Of a stretch of DNA of 10,286 nucleotides, positions 1 through 10,148 are shown piece by piece. Position 1 is the first letter of the stretch. Every line of letters starts with the position of its first letter. The notes under the pieces were generated by a model. It worked only from the letters and a program-made list of their open reading frames with translations. It did no database searches and had not been told where the DNA came from. This DNA is from Candidatus Eiseniibacteriota bacterium (GTDB taxonomy: Bacteria > Arandabacterota > Arandabacteria > JAGLYR01). Both the position numbers and the translations under genes were made by a program. The stretch is taken from NCBI GenBank assembly GCA_023132135.1, contig JAGLYR010000259.1:1-10286 (forward strand), in the 5' to 3' direction.

Positions 1-24
1 TCAACCCCTCCAATGCCCTTATCC

Positions 25-52
25 TTGTACGGAGCACGGGGCACGTAGCACG
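25..52. repeat. degenerate 7-bp tandem repeat, block A
   Basis: Four consecutive heptamers can be read: TTGTACG, GAGCACG, GGGCACG, TAGCACG. The last three share GCACG at the same phase. The block lies in non-coding DNA upstream of the sulfatase-family gene, and a related period-7 block follows at 75-88. No function is evident; the pattern looks like a short tandemly repeated intergenic element. Confidence 0.6.
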
Positions 53-74
53 TCTTTGATGCCTTTTCCCTTGG

Positions 75-88
75 ACTACGGACTGTCT
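75..88. repeat. degenerate 7-bp tandem repeat, block B
   Basis: Two heptamers, ACTACGG and ACTGTCT, are preceded by CTTGG and followed by CT. The same framing (CTTGG, then ACTA-type heptamers, then ACTGYCTCT) recurs downstream of the same gene at 2020-2054 with more units. The sulfatase gene is therefore bracketed by copies of one element family. The block argues against translation starting as far upstream as position 56. Confidence 0.55.
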
Positions 89-175
89 CTGATTGACTCA
101 TCCGGTTCAATGCTTCAGGATTGCGGCCGATCGCCCGATTCTGTATTGGAACTCAAACGGAAGGTGTTCGTGCTC

Positions 176-1981
176 ATGCCGAACCTGCGCAGATACATCG
201 GTCTTGGACTGCTGGTTGGTGTGGCGGCGGGAGTCATCGAGGCAGCAGTTGTCAACGAAACCGGGTGGCTGTTCGTTCCCTGGGCCGCCATTGCCTACGG
301 CCTGCTCCTGGCGGCGGCATTCCTGCTCCTCTGCCTGGTGGCCCGACTCGCAGGCCGTGATCTCCTCCCCGTAGGTCTGGGCGGGTCACTCGCCTTTTTC
401 TTCGCGCTGGAGATGGGATTCTGGATCAATCGCCGGTCCACCTCCCTGGTCGAAGCCTTTTCGAGCAAAATGACCAACCTGGGCATTGCCGCGGGCGGAC
501 TGGTACTGGGAGCGGTGGCGGCCTTCCTGCTGCGGCGCTGGGTGAACACAAGATCTTTCTGGCGACCCGCGTGGATACTGTGGATGGCGGGAGCTGTGAC
601 CTTCGCAGCATACTCCGGATTCCTCTATTTCTCCTCGTCTCCCGGCTGGAACTGCATTCTCATTTCCATCGACGCCCTGAGAGCCGATCACCTGGGATGC
701 TACGGTTACGAAAGAGAAACTTCCCCCAACATCGACCAGATGGCCCGCGAGGGGATGCTCTTCACCCGGGCGATCACCTCCTCTCCCGGCTCCACGGGAG
801 GCCACGGCGCCATGTTGACGGGACTACACCCCCTGAGCCACGGGGCCTACACCAACGGGATGATCCTGGACGATCTCAACATCACGGCGGCCGAGGTTTT
901 CAAGGCCGGCGGCTACGCGACCGGCGCCTTCACCAACAACTGGTTCATCAGTCCAGCCGTGGGATTCGGCCAGGGATTCGACTGTTTCGTCGACGACGGG
1001 AACGGTCTCATCCTCACCAACGCGGATCCCCGGATTCTCCTGCGCGGCCTTGCCCTGGCGCAGACAATCCGCCGGATCTTCAAGAAACCGGGATACCCTT
1101 CGGATCTGGAAATCACCGACGCGCTCAGGTGGATCCGGTGGCAGAAGAACCATCGCTTCTTTGTGTTCCTTCACATCATGGACCCACACAGTCCGTACAT
1201 TCCCCCGGACGAGTTCATTGGGAGATTCGCCGAGAGGGGCGCAAACCTGGACCCGAGGCACATCATGCGCCTTCACCACCGGGCCGAGGGAAACCTGTCC
1301 CTGGAAGACAAGGATTTCCTCGTCAACCGGTACGACGAGGAAATCCTCTCAGCGGATGCCAAGATCGGGATGCTGCGCGACGAGCTGAGGCGCCTTGGAC
1401 TGCTGGAACGGACGATGGTGGTCCTTCTGGCCGATCACGGCGAAGCGATGGGGGAAGGCCGGGAGCGGTGTTTCGGACACGGGACCCTCGACTATGGCGT
1501 TCTGACAATCCCCATGATCCTGTCCTGTCCCGGCACAATCCCGGCGGGCGTCCAATCCGCCGTACCGGCCCAGAGCATCGACGTCCTGCCGACGATTACC
1601 GACATTCTGGATCTCCCGGATTCTTCGAAGAGGCAGGGCGTTTCGCTGGTCTCGGCGGTCCGCGAGTCGACCATGACCCGGCGCCCGGTCTTTACTCTGG
1701 GAGACCTGGATCTGGGTGAGAACTACTCCCTGATCACCGACCGGTGGCAGTTCAAGGTGACAAACGGCGAGCCGTACCTCCTCTCCCTGGACCGTCCCTT
1801 CGACTGCCCCAACCTGATCGAGGAGTACCCCGTGATCGCCGACAGCCTTAGATTGGTGCTGAAGAGCTGGATTGATGCGTGCCTCGAAGAGGCCGTCGTG
1901 CCCTTCACTCTGGAAGAACGTCGAGTCAATCCCAACCGGGCGGTTGTGGGACGCCTGAAGGCTCTGGGATACCTGCAATAA
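176..1981 (+). CDS. membrane-anchored sulfatase/alkaline phosphatase superfamily protein
   Basis: A 601-residue protein from the ATG at 176 (GGAAGG at 159-164 as ribosome site). Upstream in-frame ATGs at 56 and 110 would add residues encoded partly by the 7-bp repeats, so they are less likely. Five hydrophobic segments lie at about residues 9-26, 33-56, 65-84, 101-119 and 131-152, then a catalytic domain from about 160, probably extracytoplasmic. The domain has family blocks: ISIDALRADHLGCYG (metal Asp166), MDPHSPYIPP, LADHGEAMGE (Asp420, His421), HGTLDYG (His435) and a LKALGYL tail. The nucleophile region reads SSPGSTGGHGAMLTG, without the C/S-x-P-x-R formylglycine motif; Ser206 or Thr207 sits at the nucleophile position. 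A phosphatase or phospho-headgroup transferase is therefore as likely as a sulfatase. The substrate is unknown. It appears to be a separate transcription unit from the cofactor operon. Confidence 0.85.
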   Translation: MPNLRRYIGLGLLVGVAAGVIEAAVVNETGWLFVPWAAIAYGLLLAAAFLLLCLVARLAGRDLLPVGLGGSLAFFFALEMGFWINRRSTSLVEAFSSKMTNLGIAAGGLVLGAVAAFLLRRWVNTRSFWRPAWILWMAGAVTFAAYSGFLYFSSSPGWNCILISIDALRADHLGCYGYERETSPNIDQMAREGMLFTRAITSSPGSTGGHGAMLTGLHPLSHGAYTNGMILDDLNITAAEVFKAGGYATGAFTNNWFISPAVGFGQGFDCFVDDGNGLILTNADPRILLRGLALAQTIRRIFKKPGYPSDLEITDALRWIRWQKNHRFFVFLHIMDPHSPYIPPDEFIGRFAERGANLDPRHIMRLHHRAEGNLSLEDKDFLVNRYDEEILSADAKIGMLRDELRRLGLLERTMVVLLADHGEAMGEGRERCFGHGTLDYGVLTIPMILSCPGTIPAGVQSAVPAQSIDVLPTITDILDLPDSSKRQGVSLVSAVRESTMTRRPVFTLGDLDLGENYSLITDRWQFKVTNGEPYLLSLDRPFDCPNLIEEYPVIADSLRLVLKSWIDACLEEAVVPFTLEERRVNPNRAVVGRLKALGYLQ

Positions 1982-2000
1982 GCCGCCCCTCTGGGGGCTT
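1980..2000 (+). terminator. stem-loop at the end of the sulfatase-family gene
   Basis: A hairpin overlaps the TAA stop: AAGC (1980-1983) pairs with GCTT (1997-2000), and CCCC (1986-1989) with GGGG (1993-1996), with a TCT loop and a two-base bulge. No T-run follows, so this is at best a weak or factor-assisted 3' end. Confidence 0.35.
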
Positions 2001-2019
2001 CAAATGCTCCTGTCCTTGG

Positions 2020-2054
2020 ACTAGGGACCAGGGACTACGCACTAGGGACTGCCT
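2020..2054. repeat. 7-bp tandem repeat, block C (consensus ACTAGGG)
   Basis: Five units in strict 7-bp phase: ACTAGGG, ACCAGGG, ACTACGC, ACTAGGG, ACTGCCT. The block is preceded by CCTTGG and followed by CT, the same borders as block B at 75-88. It sits between the sulfatase gene and the cofactor-operon promoter. Heptamer arrays of this kind resemble the short tandemly repeated repetitive sequences known from cyanobacteria; relatedness is not implied. Confidence 0.75.
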
Positions 2055-2060
2055 CTCACA

Positions 2061-2069
2061 CCCCCCCCC
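2061..2069. repeat. C9 homopolymer tract
   Basis: Nine consecutive C residues lie just upstream of the -35 box at 2077. Such a tract is prone to slippage and to sequencing error, and a length change would alter the distance from upstream DNA to the promoter. Confidence 0.8.
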
Positions 2070-2076
2070 GAAGTTA

Positions 2077-2105
2077 TTGACACAGCACACCGCAGGGACT
2101 ATTCT
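2077..2105 (+). promoter_or_regulatory. sigma-70-type promoter of the tup-moe-moa operon
   Basis: TTGACA (2077-2082, perfect -35) is followed by a 17-bp spacer and TATTCT (2100-2105, four of six matches to TATAAT). Transcription would begin near 2112, just before the first riboswitch base pair at 2117, which supports the assignment. The same -10 sequence occurs in the proposed promoter of the minus-strand phosphoglycerate mutase gene. Confidence 0.7.
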
Positions 2106-2116
2106 GTAGGGTCAAA

Positions 2117-2216
2117 TTCTCCGAGCCAGTTGGCCTAAGGGGGCGACGCCCCTACGGCGGCTGGCCGATAGGGATTGGGTGGAAACGCCCATTCCTCCCG
2201 TACTTGGAAAGGAGAA
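2117..2216 (+). promoter_or_regulatory. Moco-family riboswitch aptamer
   Basis: The conserved blocks I associate with this family appear in order: CTCCGAGCC (2119-2127), GGCCGATAGGG (2163-2173), CCTCCC (2194-2199) and GGAAAGGAGA (2206-2215). P1 pairs TTCTCC (2117-2122) with GGAGAA (2211-2216). P2 pairs GCCAG (2125-2129) with CTGGC (2161-2165). P3 holds CCTAAG (2134-2139) opposite TACGG (2153-2157), capped by a GGGGC/GCCCC helix: an 11-nt tetraloop-receptor arrangement. A further hairpin (about 2176-2191) ends in a GAAA loop (2182-2185) closed by G-C. The family senses molybdenum cofactor (or a tungsten analogue) and represses when bound. Its position upstream of tungstate uptake and cofactor genes fits. 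The family assignment is from memory of the consensus, not a covariance search. Confidence 0.87.
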
Positions 2217-2266
2217 CCAGAAACTCGCCGTGCCGGTTTCTCCTGACTCGAGACCGGCATTCCTTA
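2211..2266 (+). terminator. riboswitch expression platform: terminator with competing antiterminator
   Basis: A 10-bp stem forms between TGCCGGTTTC (2231-2240) and GAGACCGGCA (2250-2259; one G-U pair), followed by TTCCTTAT, a poor T-tract. The P1 3' strand GGAGAA (2211-2216) can instead pair with TTCTCC (2238-2243), with extra CC/GG pairs. That pairing breaks both P1 and the terminator stem. Ligand binding stabilises P1, frees the terminator and turns the operon off. The weak tail leaves room for Rho or translational control. Confidence 0.65.
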
Positions 2267-2280
2267 TCGAGTGTCCGCCG

Positions 2281-2298
2281 GCCCTTCCTGAGAAAGGC
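2281..2298 (+). promoter_or_regulatory. possible hairpin over the tupA ribosome binding site
   Basis: The tupA Shine-Dalgarno GAGAAAGG (2290-2297, 9 nt before the ATG) can fold back: GCC (2281-2283) with GGC (2296-2298) and TT (2285-2286) with AA (2294-2295). The stem is short with a one-base bulge. It could add translational control to the transcriptional switch upstream. Confidence 0.3.
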
Positions 2299-2306
2299 AC
2301 AATCTG

Positions 2307-3137
2307 ATGTTGAGAACCGTCTGCATCGCAATACTCCTTCTGGTCACCCCCTCGCCGACGGATTCCGCCGAGAGACTCAATCTTGCCACAACTACGAGCG
2401 TCGACAACTCCGGTCTCCTGGAAATGCTCATTCCTCCCTTTGAGGAGCGCTTCGGCATGAAGGTCGCCGTCATATCCGTCGGCACGGGCAAGGCCCTCAA
2501 GCTCGCCGAGAACGGGGATGTGGATGTGGTCATCATCCACGCCCCGGCGGCAGAGGAGGAGTTCGTCAAACAGGGATTCGGCGTGAACCGGCGCCAGTTC
2601 ATGTTCAACCACTTCCTCATAGCCGGCCCGTCGCAGGACCCGGCTTCCGTAGCAGCCGCCGAGGATGCGGCCCAGGCCTTCCAGAGAGTTGCGAGGTCGT
2701 CATCTCCATTCATCTCCCGAGGAGACGATTCCGGAACCCACCGGAGAGAACGGATGATGTGGAGCGAAGCAGGCATCGAGCCGGAAGGCCGGTGGTACCG
2801 TGAAGTGGGCCAGGGGATGGGGGCATCTCTTCTCATCGCAGACGAGACGTCGTCCTACATCCTCACGGACCAGGCCACCTTCCTGGCGTACCGGAGGAAG
2901 TTCAACCAGCTGACGGAACTGTTGCAGAAGGGTGAAGAGCTGTACAACCCCTACGCCATTATCGCGGTAAACCCGGCGCGCTGGCCAAAGGCGGACTACT
3001 TCTCGGCCATGGCCCTCATCGCCTGGGTCACTTCCCCCGAAGGCCAGCGCCTGATCGAGGAGTACCGGGTGGAGAACGAGCAGGTTTTCCGGCCCCTGGC
3101 GGTGTCCTCCGGCGGGAAGCCGGACGGGAGCAGGTAG
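2307..3137 (+). CDS. tupA: TupA, tungstate ABC transporter substrate-binding protein
   Basis: A 276-residue exported protein with a signal peptide at about 1-21 (hydrophobic VCIAILLLV, then TDSA before ERLNL). It captures tungstate outside the membrane and delivers it to TupBC. Family signs: TTTS at 28-31, the oxyanion-binding hallmark of TupA; SVGTGKAL (57-64); DVDVVIIHAP (71-80); FMFNHFLIAGP (98-108); SRGDDSGTH (137-145); YILTDQATF (184-192); and NPYAIIAVNP (214-223). Length is normal for the family. The ATG at 2307 follows GAGAAAGG by 9 nt and is the first gene after the riboswitch. Molybdate cannot be excluded as a substrate, but TTTS and the tupBC neighbours favour tungstate. Confidence 0.93.
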   Translation: MLRTVCIAILLLVTPSPTDSAERLNLATTTSVDNSGLLEMLIPPFEERFGMKVAVISVGTGKALKLAENGDVDVVIIHAPAAEEEFVKQGFGVNRRQFMFNHFLIAGPSQDPASVAAAEDAAQAFQRVARSSSPFISRGDDSGTHRRERMMWSEAGIEPEGRWYREVGQGMGASLLIADETSSYILTDQATFLAYRRKFNQLTELLQKGEELYNPYAIIAVNPARWPKADYFSAMALIAWVTSPEGQRLIEEYRVENEQVFRPLAVSSGGKPDGSR

Positions 3138-3141
3138 ACAG

Positions 3142-3834
3142 ATGGATTTCATCTGGGAGGGTATCAGGGACGCCGCCAGGATGATCGGCCGACTGGATCG
3201 GGAGATCCTCCTCATCCTCTGGACATCCTGCAAGGTCTCCGGGGGTGCAACCCTGGTTGCCTGTGCGATCGGGCTCCCGGCCGGATTCGTTCTGGGTCTA
3301 TCGGATTTCCCCGGCCGGCGTATCCTCCGGACGGTCCTCAATAGCCTGATGGCGCTGCCGACGGTGGCCGTGGGGCTCTTTCTCTACGCGCTCTTCACCC
3401 AGAGAGGGCCGCTGGGATCCATGGAACTGCTGTTCACCCAACCGGCCATGGTAGTGGGGCAAGTGGTTCTCGCCACCCCCATCATCACCGCTCTGGTGAC
3501 GGCCGCCGTGGAGGGAATCGACCGGCGGATCTGGCCGACGGCGTTGACCCTGGGAGCAGGCCCAATCCGCGCCGGCATCACCGTCCTCGGCGAGGTGCAG
3601 TTGAGCGTACTTGCAGCGGTGGCGGCAGGATTCGGACGTGTCATCGCGGAAGTCGGCTGCGCCATGATGCTGGGCGGGAACATCAAAGGCGCCACGCGCA
3701 CGCTGACCACCGCCATCGCTTTCGAGACGGGCAAGGGTGAGTTTTCGCTGGGAATCGCGCTGGGGATTGTTCTTCTCGGCATCGTGTTTCTGGTCAATTT
3801 CGTGGTCCAGTACTTCCAGGCGAGGAGCGGCTAG
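3142..3834 (+). CDS. tupB: TupB, tungstate ABC transporter permease
   Basis: A 230-residue inner-membrane permease with about five or six hydrophobic segments (roughly 31-55, 66-86, 103-123, 152-175, 204-226). The cytoplasmic coupling loop that docks on the ATPase is visible around residues 132-165 (WPTALTLGAGP through to AAGFGRVIAEVG). The C-terminal blocks GGNIKGATRTLTTAI and ALPTVAVGLFLY are typical of TupB. The ATG at 3142 lies 4 nt after the tupA stop, with GGGAGCAGG as ribosome site inside the end of tupA, so translational coupling is likely. It forms the channel for TupA-bound oxyanion with TupC supplying ATP hydrolysis. Confidence 0.92.
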   Translation: MDFIWEGIRDAARMIGRLDREILLILWTSCKVSGGATLVACAIGLPAGFVLGLSDFPGRRILRTVLNSLMALPTVAVGLFLYALFTQRGPLGSMELLFTQPAMVVGQVVLATPIITALVTAAVEGIDRRIWPTALTLGAGPIRAGITVLGEVQLSVLAAVAAGFGRVIAEVGCAMMLGGNIKGATRTLTTAIAFETGKGEFSLGIALGIVLLGIVFLVNFVVQYFQARSG

Positions 3835-4848
3835 GTGGCGGAAGTCCTGCATCGTTTGGAGAACATCCGGGTTCGGTACCGCAACGAGCATGTTCTGGAT
3901 GTGAAGAACCTTGAGTTCCTGGCCGGGAGAAGCTACGCGGTCGTGGGACCCAACGGGTCGGGCAAGTCCACCCTGCTGGGCCTTCTCAATCTCCTCGTGA
4001 AACCTTCCCGGGGGAAACTCCTGTATCGCTCCCGCGACGTGGGCGCTCCCGGTTTCGATCTGAAATCCGCCAGGCGGGAAATGACACTGGTGATGCAGGA
4101 GCCGGTTCTGTTTCGGGGAACCGTTTTCAAGAACGTAGCTTACGGCCTGAAGGCTCGCGGGACCCCGGCGGAGGAAATCAGAAGACGCGTGACCCACTAC
4201 CTGGCCCTCCTGGATCTGGAGAGTTTCGAAAACCGGCCGGTCCATGAACTCTCGGGCGGAGAAGCGCAGCGTGTAGCATTGGCGCGGGCTCTTGCGCTGG
4301 AATCCCGGATTCTGCTCCTGGATGAGCCGACCGCGAACCTGGACCGGGACAAGGCGCGAACCGTCGAGAACCTGCTTCTCGAGCTCCGGAACCACGGCGA
4401 GCGTATGGTTCTCGTGGCGACTCATGATCCATGGCAGGCCCACCGCATTGCCGATGAGGTGATCACGCTCTCGGAGGGAAAAATCGCGCCCACCAAGCCC
4501 GAGAATCTCTTCTCCGGGATTCTCTCCGAACACCGCGGGGGCTGGGGAGTCGAGGTGATCCCGGGGGTCGTCATCCAGGTGCTCGGCCAGGGCCAGGGCG
4601 AGGTTCGCCTGGTCATCGATCCGGAAGACGTGCTCCTGGCACTGGAGCCCATCCGCTCCAGTGCTCGCAATTCTTTCCATGGGCCTGTCCGGAGGATAGA
4701 ACGTATCGGCTCGGCCATGTGTATTACTGTTGGCGCGGAGATTGATCTCCATGCCATCATCACGGAGAACTCCCTCAAGGAAATGGGGCTGCACGAGGGC
4801 AAGGAAGTCTGGGCGACGTTCAAGTCGTCATCGGTTCATCTGTTCTAG
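3835..4848 (+). CDS. tupC: TupC, tungstate ABC transporter ATP-binding protein with C-terminal Mop-like domain
   Basis: A 337-residue ATPase starting with GTG immediately after the tupB stop, with GAGGAGCGG just upstream. It has a Walker A GPNGSGKST (38-46), Q-loop Gln88 in VMQEP, ABC signature LSGGEAQR (139-146), Walker B ILLLDEP (159-165) and switch His197 in ATHD. From about residue 272 there is an extra domain beginning SSARNSFHGPVRRIERIG, the Mop/TOBE type that binds molybdate or tungstate in ModC-like ATPases. This suggests uptake is also inhibited directly by the oxyanion inside the cell, in addition to the riboswitch. The distinction from ModC rests on the TupA/TupB neighbours. Confidence 0.92.
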   Translation: MAEVLHRLENIRVRYRNEHVLDVKNLEFLAGRSYAVVGPNGSGKSTLLGLLNLLVKPSRGKLLYRSRDVGAPGFDLKSARREMTLVMQEPVLFRGTVFKNVAYGLKARGTPAEEIRRRVTHYLALLDLESFENRPVHELSGGEAQRVALARALALESRILLLDEPTANLDRDKARTVENLLLELRNHGERMVLVATHDPWQAHRIADEVITLSEGKIAPTKPENLFSGILSEHRGGWGVEVIPGVVIQVLGQGQGEVRLVIDPEDVLLALEPIRSSARNSFHGPVRRIERIGSAMCITVGAEIDLHAIITENSLKEMGLHEGKEVWATFKSSSVHLF

Positions 4849-4860
4849 CAAGAGGTCGGA

Positions 4861-6069
4861 ATGATTCCGGAAGAACAAGCTATCGAGATTGTCCTGTCCG
4901 CCGCGCAGCGACTGGACAGTGAAGAGGTGCCCGCCGGCGACGCAGCGGGACGCGCGCTGGCCGAGGCGGTCGTGTCGGACATAGACATGCCCCCCTTCCA
5001 CAAGGCCGCCATGGACGGGTTCGCCGTCCGCTCGGAGGATCTCCTCCATTCTCCGGCGACACTCAGAGTAGTGGGTGAAATCCCCGCCGGTGTTTTCCCG
5101 GAATTCTCCGTTGGGCCCGGCGAGGCGGCCAGGATCATGACCGGCGCGCCAATGCCCGAAGGAGCCGACGCGGTGCAGATGGTGGAGAAAACGTCCGGGT
5201 ACGACGGTTCAACCGTCGAGATCTACAAGTCCGTCGCACCCCGCGAGCACGTCTGTCTGAAGGGCGAGGATCTGACCGCCGGCCAGGAAGTGCTCGCGAC
5301 CGGCCGGGCTGTGGGACCGGCGGAAATCGGGATCCTGGCCTCGGTGGGCCACTCCAGCGTCCGCGTCTACCGCGCTCCAGAGGTCGCCATCTTCGCCACC
5401 GGCGATGAGCTGGTGGCCCCGGAGGAACGGCCCAAGCGCGGCCACATTCGGAACTCCAACAGCTCGATTCTGTCCGCTCTGGTCCGGGCCGCCGGAGGAC
5501 GGCCGCGCGAGATGGGGATTGTCCGCGACGAGATCGATTCCCTGAGGCAGGCCGGCCGCGAGGGGCTCACGGCCAACATGCTCCTGGTGAGCGGCGGGGT
5601 GTCCGCCGGACAGTACGACCTGGTCGCCCAGGTCCTCGACTCGCTGGGGGTCAGGATTCTGTTCCACCGGGTGGCCATCAAACCAGGGAAACCCCTCCTG
5701 TTCGGCGCAAAGAATGGTACTCTGATCTTCGGGCTGCCCGGGAATCCGGTGTCCGGTCTCGTTACCTTCCGGCTTTTCGTCGAGCCGGCAATCCGCACAA
5801 TGATGGGACTCCGCTCGGCATCGATGACAAGACTCGCAGGCATCCTGGACGAGGATCTGCAGAAGAAACCGGATCGCACATGGTACATGCCCGCCCGGAT
5901 TCGCTCTCAGGACGGCGAGCTTCGCGTCAAGGTGCTGGATACCCACGGCTCCGCCGACCTCGGCGGGTTCGCGCTGGGTAATGCCATGCTGGTCGCCCCG
6001 CGGAAAGTGAGTCTGATCCCGGCAGGGAGCGAGGTCACGATCCTGGTGGGAGGTGATTTCGCTGATTGA
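4861..6069 (+). CDS. moeA: MoeA, molybdopterin molybdenumtransferase
   Basis: A 402-residue cytoplasmic enzyme that inserts molybdate (or tungstate) into adenylylated molybdopterin. Hallmarks: MPPFHKAAMDGFAV (43-56), GEIPAG (72-77), RIMTGAPMPEGADAV (91-105), ATGDEL (179-184), RNSNSSIL (197-204), SGGVSAGQYD (244-253; many homologues have Val where this has Ala249), IKPGKPLLFG (273-282) and FGLPGNPVSG (290-299). Length is normal and the C-terminal domain is complete. The ATG at 4861 follows AAGAGG, 12 nt after tupC. Coupling of the tungstate importer to the metal-insertion step suggests W-cofactor use, although MoeA itself does not reveal the metal. Confidence 0.96.
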   Translation: MIPEEQAIEIVLSAAQRLDSEEVPAGDAAGRALAEAVVSDIDMPPFHKAAMDGFAVRSEDLLHSPATLRVVGEIPAGVFPEFSVGPGEAARIMTGAPMPEGADAVQMVEKTSGYDGSTVEIYKSVAPREHVCLKGEDLTAGQEVLATGRAVGPAEIGILASVGHSSVRVYRAPEVAIFATGDELVAPEERPKRGHIRNSNSSILSALVRAAGGRPREMGIVRDEIDSLRQAGREGLTANMLLVSGGVSAGQYDLVAQVLDSLGVRILFHRVAIKPGKPLLFGAKNGTLIFGLPGNPVSGLVTFRLFVEPAIRTMMGLRSASMTRLAGILDEDLQKKPDRTWYMPARIRSQDGELRVKVLDTHGSADLGGFALGNAMLVAPRKVSLIPAGSEVTILVGGDFAD

Positions 6070-7006
6070 CAGTCACGGGCGTTCCATCAACTACCTGCGG
6101 ATTTCCGTAACGGACCGTTGCAACCTGCGTTGCTACTACTGCATGCCTCCCCAGGGTGTGACGCCTGTCAGGCATTCCGACGTCCTGCGGTATGAAGAGA
6201 TTGTCGAGATCGCCCGCGCTGCGCTGGCCTGCGGCTTCACCAAGTTCCGCCTCACGGGCGGTGAACCTCTGCTGAGGGCCGGCGTCCTCGACCTGGCAAG
6301 GGACCTCGCCCGCCTGCCGGGACTCTCGTCTCTCACAATGACGACCAACGGCACTCTCCTTGAGAAGTTCGCCCGGGCCTTGAGAGAAGCGGGGGTCCAG
6401 CGGCTGAATGTGAGCCTGGATGCTCTGGACAGCGACCTCTACCGCCGCATCACGCGGGGAGGTGACATACGCATGGTCCTCCGGGGAATTGAAGCTGCGC
6501 GCAGCGCCGGTTTCGAGGGAACCAAGATCAACACGGTGATGATCAAGGGAACCAACGAGGATGAGATCCCGGCCTTCGTACGCTACAGCGCTGAGACCGG
6601 GACCCAGATACGCTTCATTGAGAAGATGCCGTTTCCGGAGATTCCCGGGGAAGGGTTGACGGGGGCCGAGGTCCGGCAGCGGATAGAGCAACTCGTGGAA
6701 CTCTCTCCGGAAGAGGACCCGAGCGCGCCGCGCGTCCGGGCCTTCACGGCATCCAATGGGGGCCGGTTCGCTTTCATTTCGCCGGTCACCGATTCCTTCT
6801 GCGTGAGCTGCAATCGCCTGCGGCTCACGTCGACCGGGTTCCTGCGGCAGTGCCTCCTCTGCGAGACAGGCGTCGATCTGCGCGCCATCGTTCGCAGCGG
6901 CCGAGACCAGGCTGCGCTCAGGAAGGCAATCCGGGAAGCCGTCCTGCTCAAGCCCCTGACTCCGCAGGGTACGGTGGAGAGCGCCATGAACCAGATCGGC
7001 GGGTAG
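6053..7006 (+). CDS. moaA: MoaA, GTP 3',8-cyclase (radical SAM)
   Basis: A 317-residue enzyme that starts cofactor synthesis by converting GTP to 3',8-cyclo-7,8-dihydro-GTP, which MoaC uses. The radical-SAM cluster cysteines are 23, 27 and 30 (C-x3-C-x2-C in DRCNLRCYYC). The C-terminal cluster cysteines are 250, 253 and 267 (C-x2-C-x13-C), and the conserved terminal Gly-Gly is present. Other blocks are LTGGEPLLR (68-75), MTTNG (96-100) and NVSLDAL (119-125). It overlaps moeA by 17 nt. GTG at 6053 is the called start, but GGGAGG (6048-6053) is better placed for the CTG at 6062, which would give LIDSHGR as N-terminus, much as in other MoaA proteins. Confidence 0.96.
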   Translation: MISLIDSHGRSINYLRISVTDRCNLRCYYCMPPQGVTPVRHSDVLRYEEIVEIARAALACGFTKFRLTGGEPLLRAGVLDLARDLARLPGLSSLTMTTNGTLLEKFARALREAGVQRLNVSLDALDSDLYRRITRGGDIRMVLRGIEAARSAGFEGTKINTVMIKGTNEDEIPAFVRYSAETGTQIRFIEKMPFPEIPGEGLTGAEVRQRIEQLVELSPEEDPSAPRVRAFTASNGGRFAFISPVTDSFCVSCNRLRLTSTGFLRQCLLCETGVDLRAIVRSGRDQAALRKAIREAVLLKPLTPQGTVESAMNQIGG

Positions 7007-7034
7007 TCAATCTGTGTGATCTACGGAGGGTGCC

Positions 7035-7508
7035 ATGGGAAAACTGACACATTTGGATGAAGAGGGAAGGGCGAAGATGGTTGATGTGGGCGCCAAGGAG
7101 GCAACCTCCAGACACGCAGTCGCCCGGGGAAAGGTCCTTCTGTCTCCTGAGACGCTCACGCTCCTCAGCGAGAAACGCCTGAGGAAAGGCCACCCTGTCG
7201 AGGTCGCGCGCATTGCCGGCATCATGGCAGCCAAACGGTGCGCCGAGCTCATCCCGCTCTGTCATCCCCTCTCCCTCACTCATGTCGATGTGTCCGCCGA
7301 AATCACAGATGGGGGAGTGGATATTGAAGCGTCCGTTCGTACGGTCGGCAGTACGGGTGTGGAAATGGAAGCCCTTACGGCGGTCTCCGTTGCCGCCCTC
7401 ACGATCTACGACATGTGCAAGGCGGTGGAAAAGGGTATCGTCATCAGCGACATTCGCCTGATGAGAAAGGAAGGAGGCCGGAGCGGTGTCTACACCAGGA
7501 AAGAGTAG
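7035..7508 (+). CDS. moaC: MoaC, cyclic pyranopterin monophosphate synthase
   Basis: A 157-residue protein catalysing the second step, forming cyclic pyranopterin monophosphate from the MoaA product. It is essentially a textbook Moa[17 protein letters not shown] (15-30), [19 protein letters not shown] (61-79), [19 protein letters not shown] (108-126), and MCKAVEKG with Lys129 as the expected catalytic lysine. The ATG at 7035 has GGAGGGTG upstream. It follows moaA by 28 nt, the largest gap in the operon, and its 3' end overlaps the next gene by 23 nt. Confidence 0.97.
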
Positions 7509-7977
7509 CCGCGGTGTGATCACGGCCGTCTGCATCAGCGAGAAGAGAGGCACACAGAAGATGGATGTCGGACGGCGCCGCCTTCTGCCCGATTTCGGCC
7601 TGGAGGGCGACGCTCATGGCGGGTACATGCACCGCCAGGTCAGCCTGCTCGCAGAGGAATCCATCGACAAGATGCGCGCACGGGGACTCGAGCTGGACCA
7701 CGGCGCGTTCGGTGAGAACCTCATCAGCCGCGGAATCGAGCTGGTGAGTCTCCCCATCGGCACGGTGCTCCGGGTTGGAGAGGACGTACTTCTCCGGGTC
7801 ACACAGATCGGCAAGGAATGCCACGACCATTGCGCCATCTACGAGCAGGTGGGCGACTGCATCATGCCCCGCGAGGGGATCTTCGCCGAGGTGCTCGAGG
7901 GCGGCGAAGTCCAGACCGACGATCCGATCGTCGTGACCGACGGGCAGGCCGGGACCGCAGGAGAGGAATCATTATGA
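7486..7977 (+). CDS. stand-alone MOSC-domain protein
   Basis: A 163-residue protein starting at GTG 7486, with AAGGAGG at 7471-7477 inside moaC. The MOSC fold (named for the C-terminus of Mo-cofactor sulfurase) is shown by GLEGDAHGG (38-46), HRQVSLL (49-55), FGENL (75-79) and [19 protein letters not shown] (109-127). Cys112 is at the position of the conserved MOSC cysteine thought to carry or contact sulfur; Cys116 and Cys125 follow. Single-domain MOSC proteins often occur with MogA/MoaB, sometimes fused to it. The substrate is not known, but cofactor sulfuration or cofactor handling is the likely role. Its stop overlaps the mogA start as ATGA. Confidence 0.9.
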
Positions 7978-8486
7978 CCACCGCGTGTAGTCTCCGAATC
8001 CACATACTCACGATCAGCGACAAGGCATCACGGGGGGAACGGGTCGACGGCACGGGGCCGGCTCTGGGTCGGCGGCTGGAGGAACTGGGATGGAACGTGT
8101 CCGGAATCGACGTGGTCCCCGACGAGCGGGAACAGATTGCCTCCGAACTGCGCCGCCTGGCGGGCCGCGGTGACGTGGATATTGTCTTCACGGCCGGTGG
8201 AACCGGCCTCGCTCCCCGCGACGTGACTCCTGATGCCACTTCCGAAGTTGTTGACAGAATCGTTCCTGGAATCGGCGAGCTGGTTCGCGCCGAGGGGCTC
8301 AAGCACACGCCCCGGGCTGCCCTTTCGCGGGGCACTGCCGGCACGCTCGGCAAAACCCTCATCATCAACCTGCCGGGCAGCCCGCGAGGAGCGGTCGAGT
8401 CCGTCGAGGCCATTGCCTCCATTCTCGATCACGCCGTGGAGATTCTGCGTGGCGAGGGGAGTGAATGCGCCAGGCCGGGAAGATAG
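7974..8486 (+). CDS. mogA: MogA/MoaB-type molybdopterin adenylyltransferase
   Basis: A 170-residue protein that activates molybdopterin with ATP, giving the adenylylated intermediate used by MoeA. Key blocks: ILTISDKASRGERVDGTGP (11-29), FTAGGTGLAPRDVTPDAT (72-89), SRGTAG (118-123) and NLPGSPRGAVE (132-142). The ATG at 7974 overlaps the MOSC stop by 4 nt (ATGA) and follows AGGAGAGG at good spacing. A longer upstream reading of the same frame is only overlap with the MOSC gene. MogA and MoaB cannot be separated by sequence reading alone. It is the last gene of the operon, and its TAG touches the stop of the convergent gene. Confidence 0.93.
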   Translation: MTTACSLRIHILTISDKASRGERVDGTGPALGRRLEELGWNVSGIDVVPDEREQIASELRRLAGRGDVDIVFTAGGTGLAPRDVTPDATSEVVDRIVPGIGELVRAEGLKHTPRAALSRGTAGTLGKTLIINLPGSPRGAVESVEAIASILDHAVEILRGEGSECARPGR

Positions 8487-10070
8487 CTACCGCACAGCCG
8501 TCCCTTCCCCATGCACGAGAGCGCGGTAGGTCTTCTCCACCCGGTCCCAGTTATACTCCCGGTCCAGCGCCCAGTACCGCCCGATCACGGTGACAACCTC
8601 GCCGAGGCCCAGTCTCCCCGCCTCAGCTTCCACCTCCCCGATGTAGCGGGCGCCCGACTCGGGCCTCTCTCCCCTGCGGCCCAGGAGACCATGGATGTAG
8701 ACTTCCGGGACACCTCGCTCCTTCGCCATTTGCATCAGGGGCATAAGGTGATCGATGGATCCGTGGGAGCTGTAAAAGGAGATGATCCCCAAGAGATGAA
8801 GCCGGGTTCCATCCCGCCTGGCCCCTTCCATGGCCCACACAAAGGCGTCGTTCTCCAGGAACGAGCCGTCTTCGATGGCTTTGTCGATTCTCACCCGGTC
8901 CGAGTAGACCCTGCGACCGGCCCCGAGGTGGAGATGCCCGGATTCGGAGTTCCCGACCGCTCCCGCGGGCATACCCACGGCTTCCCCCGCTGCCTCAAGC
9001 CGGGCGAAGGGGCAATCGCGCTGCAGGCGATCCATCACCGGCGTGTCCGCCTTCATGATCATGTTGCCGTACTCATCGTCGTTGAGTCCCCAGCCGTCAA
9101 CAATCACAAGGAGAACCCTGGGAGAGCTCTCCGCTCCGTTGAAGCCCTCCAGCAGACTCTGTCCCGTCATGACATCCGGTTTGTCGAGCCCCAGGAGTTC
9201 AAGGACCGTCGGCGCGACGTCGGCCAGCTCGCCCGATTCCCGTACTGCCCAGATGTTCCCGCCGGGTGACACCAGGATGAACGGAACCAGGGAGTCGGTG
9301 TGACCGGTATCGATTGCGCCTTCCGGGTACCGCCATTTCTCGACTGTTCCATGATCGGCCGTGATGATTGTCGTGACACCCGCGGCTTTCGCCGCATCAA
9401 CCACGCGGCCCACCTGCTCGTCCGCCGATGCAACGGCTTGCAGGATCGCTTTCTCGTTCTCGATATGGCCGACCACGTCGACGTTTGCGAAGTTGGCGAT
9501 GATGAGACCGCAGGAGGGGTCCTCGATGCGTTCGATCACGGCATCCGCGACACCAGCGGCGGACATCTCGGGAATCTCGTCGTAGTTCACCTCGTGTTCG
9601 GGGGATGGGATTGCAACCCGATCTTCGTTCGGGAATTGTTCATCCCGGCGTCCACCGAGGAAGTAGCTGATGTGGACCGCCTTCTCCGATTCCGAGATTC
9701 TCGCGAGCTTCAGTCCACTGCGGGTTACCACCTCGCACAGGGTGTCCGAAATACGGCTCACGGGCGGGAAGGCTACCTTCACGCCAAGATTCGGATCGTA
9801 CTGGATCATCGTGGCAAAGTGCGCCAGGAGACCCGATGGGGTGGAGAAGTGAGAGAACCCGGGATCGGTGAAGCATTCGGTCAGCTGGATTTCGCGTTCT
9901 CCACGGATGTCGTAGAAGATCACGTAGTCGCCGCCGCGGATCTTGCCGACAGCGTTACCAGACTCGTCGACCTTGACGAGTGGGAGCATTGCCTCGTCAT
10001 CCTCTCCCCTGCGGTAGGCCGCCCGCACCGCTTCGGCCATGGGGTGCTTTCTGTCTGCTGCTTCAGTCAT
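8487..10070 (-). CDS. circularly permuted cofactor-independent phosphoglycerate mutase
   Basis: A 527-residue protein that should interconvert 3- and 2-phosphoglycerate in glycolysis/gluconeogenesis using two divalent metals. All iPGM blocks are present, but rotated. First come the canonical middle and end: GEDDEAMLPLV (22-32), IFYDIRGER (51-59; Arg56, Arg59), ESEKAVHISYF (127-137; Lys130), NVDVVGH (196-202; Asp198, His202), ADHG (238-241), GHT (256-258; His257) and MTGQSL (301-306). After a short linker come the canonical start blocks: VIVDGWGL (322-329; Asp325), GNSESGHLHLGAGR (373-386; nucleophile Ser375), SSHGSIDH (434-441; His436), GRYWALDREYNWDR (497-510) and LVHGEG. The gene is intact, with AAGGAG at 10083-10078, 7 nt before its ATG. 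The canonical DGRD motif reads GRRG (464-467), replacing the usual catalytic Asp. Confidence 0.92.
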   Translation of the reverse strand: MTEAADRKHPMAEAVRAAYRRGEDDEAMLPLVKVDESGNAVGKIRGGDYVIFYDIRGEREIQLTECFTDPGFSHFSTPSGLLAHFATMIQYDPNLGVKVAFPPVSRISDTLCEVVTRSGLKLARISESEKAVHISYFLGGRRDEQFPNEDRVAIPSPEHEVNYDEIPEMSAAGVADAVIERIEDPSCGLIIANFANVDVVGHIENEKAILQAVASADEQVGRVVDAAKAAGVTTIITADHGTVEKWRYPEGAIDTGHTDSLVPFILVSPGGNIWAVRESGELADVAPTVLELLGLDKPDVMTGQSLLEGFNGAESSPRVLLVIVDGWGLNDDEYGNMIMKADTPVMDRLQRDCPFARLEAAGEAVGMPAGAVGNSESGHLHLGAGRRVYSDRVRIDKAIEDGSFLENDAFVWAMEGARRDGTRLHLLGIISFYSSHGSIDHLMPLMQMAKERGVPEVYIHGLLGRRGERPESGARYIGEVEAEAGRLGLGEVVTVIGRYWALDREYNWDRVEKTYRALVHGEGTAVR

Positions 10071-10119
10071 TCATGTGCTCCTTGCACGGCCCCTGGTGAG
10101 AAATGCCGACTAGCGTTTC

Positions 10120-10148
10120 AGAATATCGCCTGCTTCAGTGGCTATCAA
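10120..10148 (-). promoter_or_regulatory. promoter of the phosphoglycerate mutase gene
   Basis: Read on the minus strand, TTGATA (10148-10143) is followed by a 17-bp spacer and TATTCT (10125-10120). The transcript would start near 10113, giving a leader of about 40 nt before the ATG at 10070. The spacing and -10 hexamer match the tup operon promoter. Confidence 0.6.

Follow-up and report, generated by a model that had tools for sequence, protein, structure and literature searches.

Introduction

The contig considered here, a draft-genome sequence of 10286 bases that was analysed whole (the window), carries a gene which raises two questions, namely whether an iPGM-type phosphoglycerate mutase can be found in nature with the two halves of its chain in swapped order and, if so, whether a protein built in this way is still a phosphoglycerate mutase. 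In the following, the order of the halves, the predicted structure, the distribution of homologues and the active site are described, and the possible functions are weighed against the enzyme complement and gene neighbourhoods of the hosts.

The gene and the order of its halves

The gene is a single uninterrupted open reading frame (table 1), as first proposed. The original prediction had also given it a Shine-Dalgarno sequence and a promoter of its own: the former is readily found, while the latter reduces to a site at chance level.

Table 1. Features of the permuted gene in the window (residue numbers refer to its product)
Feature	Positions	Strand	Remarks
Permuted iPGM-family gene	8487..10070	-	ATG at 10070, stop at 8487; one open frame, 527 aa
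Shine-Dalgarno-like AAGGAG	10078..10083	-	read directly from the sequence; 7 nt 5' of ATG
Possible sigma-70-like promoter, TTGATA-17-TATTCT	10120..10148	-	9/12 match; 0.5 such sites expected by chance in the region; not above chance
Residues 12-307, counterpart of canonical iPGM (1ejj) 217-509, placed first	9150..10037	-	phmmer E 7e-60; structure match
New linker, residues 308-317, from old C-terminus to old N-terminus	9120..9149	-	gap between the two phmmer matches
Residues 318-526, counterpart of canonical iPGM (1ejj) 5-213, placed last	8493..9119	-	phmmer E 7e-58; structure match
Ser375, counterpart of catalytic Ser62, in GNSESGH	8946..8948	-	invariant in 83/83 permuted and 27/27 canonical proteins
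Residues 464-468, GRRGE in place of canonical DGRD(T/V)	8667..8681	-	83/83 permuted; DGRD in 27/27 canonical

The proposal that the second set of iPGM motifs precedes the first is borne out both by TIGR01307 and by phmmer comparison with 1ejj. The leading segment comprises the second part of the transferase domain and the C-terminal part of the phosphatase domain, and carries R56, R59, K130, D198, H202, D239, H240 and H257; the trailing one carries D325, the nucleophile S375, H436, R466, R498 and R504, and the linker that joins them varies in sequence and length across the permuted family. The match to the TIGR01307 profile totals 473.6 bits, above the cut-off of 330.65, and consists of two stretches that are out of order, residues 10-307 corresponding to profile positions 212-504, and Pfam, NCBIfam and PDB all assign the protein to iPGM, with the segments out of order. 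The colinear iPGM arrangement (N-terminal phosphatase segment, transferase, C-terminal phosphatase segment) is broken near Bst 213/217, and the profile and phmmer coordinates place the start of the protein just past the position of the LVxGEG motif and its end exactly there, as had been proposed.

The evidence for a natural circular permutation of the iPGM fold is firm, the reading frame being continuous, the old termini joined, the new termini located within the parent and the arrangement present in independent assemblies. The usual route to circular permutation is tandem duplication followed by trimming, and it is the one that the original prediction had favoured; no intermediate of this kind was seen among the loci analysed. 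A search of the literature gave nothing relevant on a permuted iPGM, in agreement with the view that none had been described, and natural circular permutations that split one domain of a two-domain enzyme of central metabolism are rare.

Predicted structure

iPGM consists of a phosphatase and a phosphotransferase domain linked by two hinges (PMC5382265). The AF2 model of the permuted protein, obtained with 39 family members in the input (pLDDT 86.1, pTM 0.83), has the overall iPGM fold with both domains, recovered as two out-of-order structural matches. The halves were compared separately with bacterial iPGM, as the structural aligner is sequential and cannot follow the swap: modelled residues 8-311 match residues 214-510 of the iPGM chain with Z about 20 (rmsd 2.4 with 4nwj), while residues 312-527, modelled alone (216 residues, pLDDT 74.8), match 1ejj 8-214 through residues 321-527 (Z 15.7, rmsd 4.7). 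Both halves are, on these models, predicted to fold like iPGM, a structural comparison of this kind having been suggested along with the original prediction. By the B. stearothermophilus domain limits, the break would fall inside the transferase domain; the phosphatase domain would, therefore, be contiguous and the transferase domain split. The chain starts at the canonical loop past LVxGEG, proceeds to the old C-terminus, crosses the short new linker to the old N-terminus and ends at the old loop; as judged from sequence and predicted structure, the iPGM fold and its two-metal phosphoserine active site are thereby rebuilt unchanged.

Homologues, distribution and origin

A scan of genome contigs returned 80 loci, nearly all spanning the full query and 51-64% identical to it. 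Together with the window's own locus and two from relatives, they make up a set of 83 permuted loci, each of which (83/83) is a single frame in permuted order by ORF analysis; the 26 other iPGM loci in that analysis are of canonical order. The gene is, therefore, not unique to the window, the search for homologues of the same order that accompanied the original prediction as a suggestion having yielded more than 80. In the permuted proteins the motif M(A/S)xAVRxAY follows closely upon the start, and those whose contig is complete stop just past LVxGEG. The breakpoints are the same in the window protein and in 82 homologues from other genomes, one of which sits on a chromosome record of 4.43 Mb (CP070825.1).

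That the order could be an artefact, due to misassembly of two adjacent ordinary genes, is a concern that was voiced at the outset and that the origin of the window, a single contig of a draft genome, might seem to justify. It is excluded by the recurrence of identical order and breakpoints across many independent assemblies, including the chromosome record, and the permuted family is also set apart from canonical iPGM by fixed residues (see below); the probability left to an artefact is negligible.

According to their titles, the hosts belong to Chloroflexota, Syntrophales and other Deltaproteobacteria, Aminicenantes, Zixibacteria, Armatimonadetes, Planctomycetota, Fibrobacterota (Chitinispirillaceae), Neomarinimicrobiota, Polyangiaceae and others, i.e. 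about ten phyla, the labels being approximate because nearly all are those of MAGs. The permuted gene is present in 7 of the 389 genomes of a broad sample (at least 90% completeness requested) and in one of eight genomes of the window's own small phylum, namely that of the window itself (G000), the same-phylum surveys being small (8 and 4 genomes); relatives of the same class that have a complete iPGM have it in canonical order. A viral origin was considered and rejected, the viral contigs searched containing no related locus.

An unrooted tree was built from 86 permuted and 29 canonical rows. All permuted sequences are separated from the canonical ones by a single branch (SH-aLRT 100), a stem of 0.96 substitutions per site. 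One clade with so long a stem points to a permutation that arose once, and the simplest reading of the sequences is a single origin followed by spread among phyla. Two hosts of the permuted gene (G088 and G090) also contain a very divergent canonical-order iPGM (L121 and L122), on a branch of length 1.68.

The active site

The nine substrate residues of iPGM are S62, H123, R153, D154, R185, R191, R261, R264 and K336 (PMC3886921). When the 83 permuted proteins (window included) are aligned with 27 canonical ones, the permuted set shows no variation, one truncated row aside, at the seven metal-site residues (Bst D12, S62, D403, H407, D444, H445 and H462) or at eight of the nine substrate residues. 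The claim that nearly all metal and substrate residues are kept is, thus, correct for these, but not for Asp154, the ninth substrate residue, which is Gly in 83/83 permuted proteins (Gly467 in the window) as part of the replacement of DGRD by GRRG. The changes fixed in the permuted family include D151G, G152R, D154G, T/V155E, V122S, G121S, S124G, D263E and N68H. When positions conserved within both the permuted and the canonical groups are compared, 12 of 17 fixed differences lie at most two residues from contact residues, versus 12 of 65 conserved unchanged positions (p 8e-5); such clustering would be expected of a change in specificity, and not of decay.

Other phosphoglycerate mutases in the hosts

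The window's genome holds a true GpmA (TIGR01258, 405 bits) and an ApgM, which disposes of the permuted gene as the sole glycolytic mutase of its host. Among 41 permuted-gene hosts, ApgM-type proteins above cut-off are found in 38, GpmA in eight and canonical iPGM in five, none of the 41 lacking all three. On this loose count, 19 of 28 canonical-iPGM hosts are without any other mutase, as opposed to 0/41 permuted-gene hosts (Fisher p 1.5e-10), a contrast that may in part be one of lineage, the control genomes being of different lineages. The ApgM matches are, in the examples scanned, of two kinds, those of about 350-380 bits corresponding to PRK04135 (phosphoglycerate mutase) and those of 430-510 bits to PRK04200/TIGR02535 (proposed homoserine kinase). 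For this reason TIGR00306 matches of about 430-540 bits were left out of a strict count, in which unscanned ApgM matches were assigned by score and only the PRK04135-like kind was counted. Even so, 40 of the 41 permuted-gene hosts have another mutase, i.e. 1/41 is without one compared with 23/28 canonical hosts (p 1.8e-12), bearing in mind that the hosts are mostly binned metagenomes and that the co-occurrence could, therefore, include binning errors. That, on the loose count, no host has the permuted gene as its only mutase argues against the gene being essential for glycolysis. On the other hand, many bacteria carry redundant phosphoglycerate mutases, E. coli having two kinds.

Possible functions

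The retention of eight of the nine substrate residues, and the possibility that Glu468 replaces Asp154, make 3PG/2PG activity possible. The protein could, then, be permuted and yet an ordinary phosphoglycerate mutase, serving as an extra isozyme in which Glu468 does the work of Asp154. Indeed, the metal ligands, Ser62, His123, five Arg and Lys336 are all kept, the TIGR01307 cut-off is passed and the iPGM fold is retained in the predicted structure. With both D154 and D151 lost in 83/83 proteins, other invariant changes near the site, and another phosphoglycerate mutase or ApgM-type homologue in 41/41 hosts, unlike those of canonical iPGM, we regard such an isozyme as rather unlikely. As for the original assignment, it holds for the permuted iPGM fold, whereas the mutase identity is doubtful, given the loop rewired in every member examined and the other mutases of the hosts.

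The gene is one of a single-origin, circularly permuted iPGM-fold family. As the Asp154 loop has changed along with other site residues, and as other phosphoglycerate mutases are present in the hosts, this family has probably been repurposed and would act on something other than 2-/3-phosphoglycerate. What automatic annotation calls iPGM is here most likely a permuted, repurposed family of metal-dependent phosphoserine phosphotransferases. By analogy with iPGM, phosphate would move from a phosphomonoester onto Ser375 by way of the metal sites D198/H202/H257 and D325/S375/D239/H240, and would then be passed to an acceptor held by the transferase domain.

Permutation and an altered substrate loop go together throughout the family, which therefore allows a direct test of whether the former aided the change of function. 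Furthermore, since the TIGR01307 cut-off is passed, automatic annotation would call these genes glycolytic phosphoglycerate mutases, which may misstate the metabolism of many uncultured lineages; they appear to be an overlooked enzyme family, mislabelled in databases as ordinary iPGM.

Comparison with related enzymes

The closest known system is iPGM/GpmI (TIGR01307; 1ejj, 4nwj), with which the permuted family shares full-length homology of both halves, the metal ligands, Ser62, His123, eight of nine substrate residues and the fold, and from which it differs by the swapped halves, by GRRG in place of DGRD in all members examined and by the other mutases of its hosts. Because it has neither the order nor the complete set of substrate residues of iPGM, the protein is better classed with a permuted variant family than as plain iPGM. 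ApgM (TIGR00306, PRK04135) has the same alkaline-phosphatase superfamily chemistry, but it is a separate family, which most permuted-gene hosts encode in addition by a second gene. The proposed homoserine kinase (TIGR02535/PRK04200) and the PhpG phosphonoformyl transferase (NF038358) are, by model name, mutase-type proteins to which other reactions are given, and thus set a precedent; they differ in that they score with the ApgM family and not with iPGM, their models matching ApgM end to end in one order. A search for literature on mutase-type homoserine kinases found none. Finally, phosphopentomutase (3m7v) resembles the permuted protein in the phosphatase-domain fold (Z 10.7, residues 106-311), but matches this one domain only and scores 36-38 bits, below cut-offs of 254-256. 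The cap domain and substrate of phosphopentomutase differ from those of the iPGM family.

Gene neighbourhoods

No universal operon partner or gene context common to the whole permuted family was found, the same-strand neighbours varying by clade. In 25 Syntrophales-type loci, a macro-domain gene (O-acetyl-ADP-ribose deacetylase type) lies directly downstream on the same strand (e.g. L057:7627-8160). Directly beside the permuted gene are also PAPS-forming enzymes in L048 and L051 and homologous sulfotransferases in L049, L050 and L051, and in L068 a PHP protein whose best model, below cut-off, is 3',5'-nucleoside bisphosphate phosphatase, is a neighbour. These three contexts would suit a phosphatase or phosphotransferase acting on a nucleotide-type phosphate (PAP/pAp, PAPS or ADP-ribose phosphates). 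Such a substrate is improbable, in that the contexts differ between clades and are absent from most loci, the window included, the kept substrate residues are the phosphoglycerate binders of iPGM, and the macro-domain adjacency could be Syntrophales synteny only. More broadly, and quite tentatively, the permuted clade might be viewed as an enzyme class of its own whose reaction would be new to biochemistry and might involve a phosphate of nucleotide or sulfate pathways, the class having been born by permuting a glycolytic enzyme, spread across many uncultured bacterial phyla and annotated as iPGM.

Among further observations, loci L048-L051 (around 1-8736), which are labelled as different phyla, resemble a mobile sulfation cassette. 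A His_Phos_1 gene is found downstream of the permuted gene in three Chloroflexota loci (L035, L036 and L038), the copy in L038 being nearest to TIGR03848 (putative phosphomutase), with a score just under the cut-off.

In the window itself, positions 2307-8486 (+) are occupied by a run of genes for molybdenum/tungsten use, encoding a PBP-like binding protein, a permease, an ATPase with a TOBE domain, MoeA, MoaA, MoaC, MOSC and a MoaB/Mog-type protein. A functional tie to these molybdenum cofactor genes was rejected, for the conserved neighbour clusters of the family contain no window gene except the permuted one. The permuted gene and the molybdopterin-binding gene are convergent, their stop codons touching at 8486/8487 with zero bases between them. 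Positions 56-1981 (+) encode a membrane protein with a C-terminal sulfatase domain, which, like the product of the permuted gene, belongs to the alkaline phosphatase superfamily.
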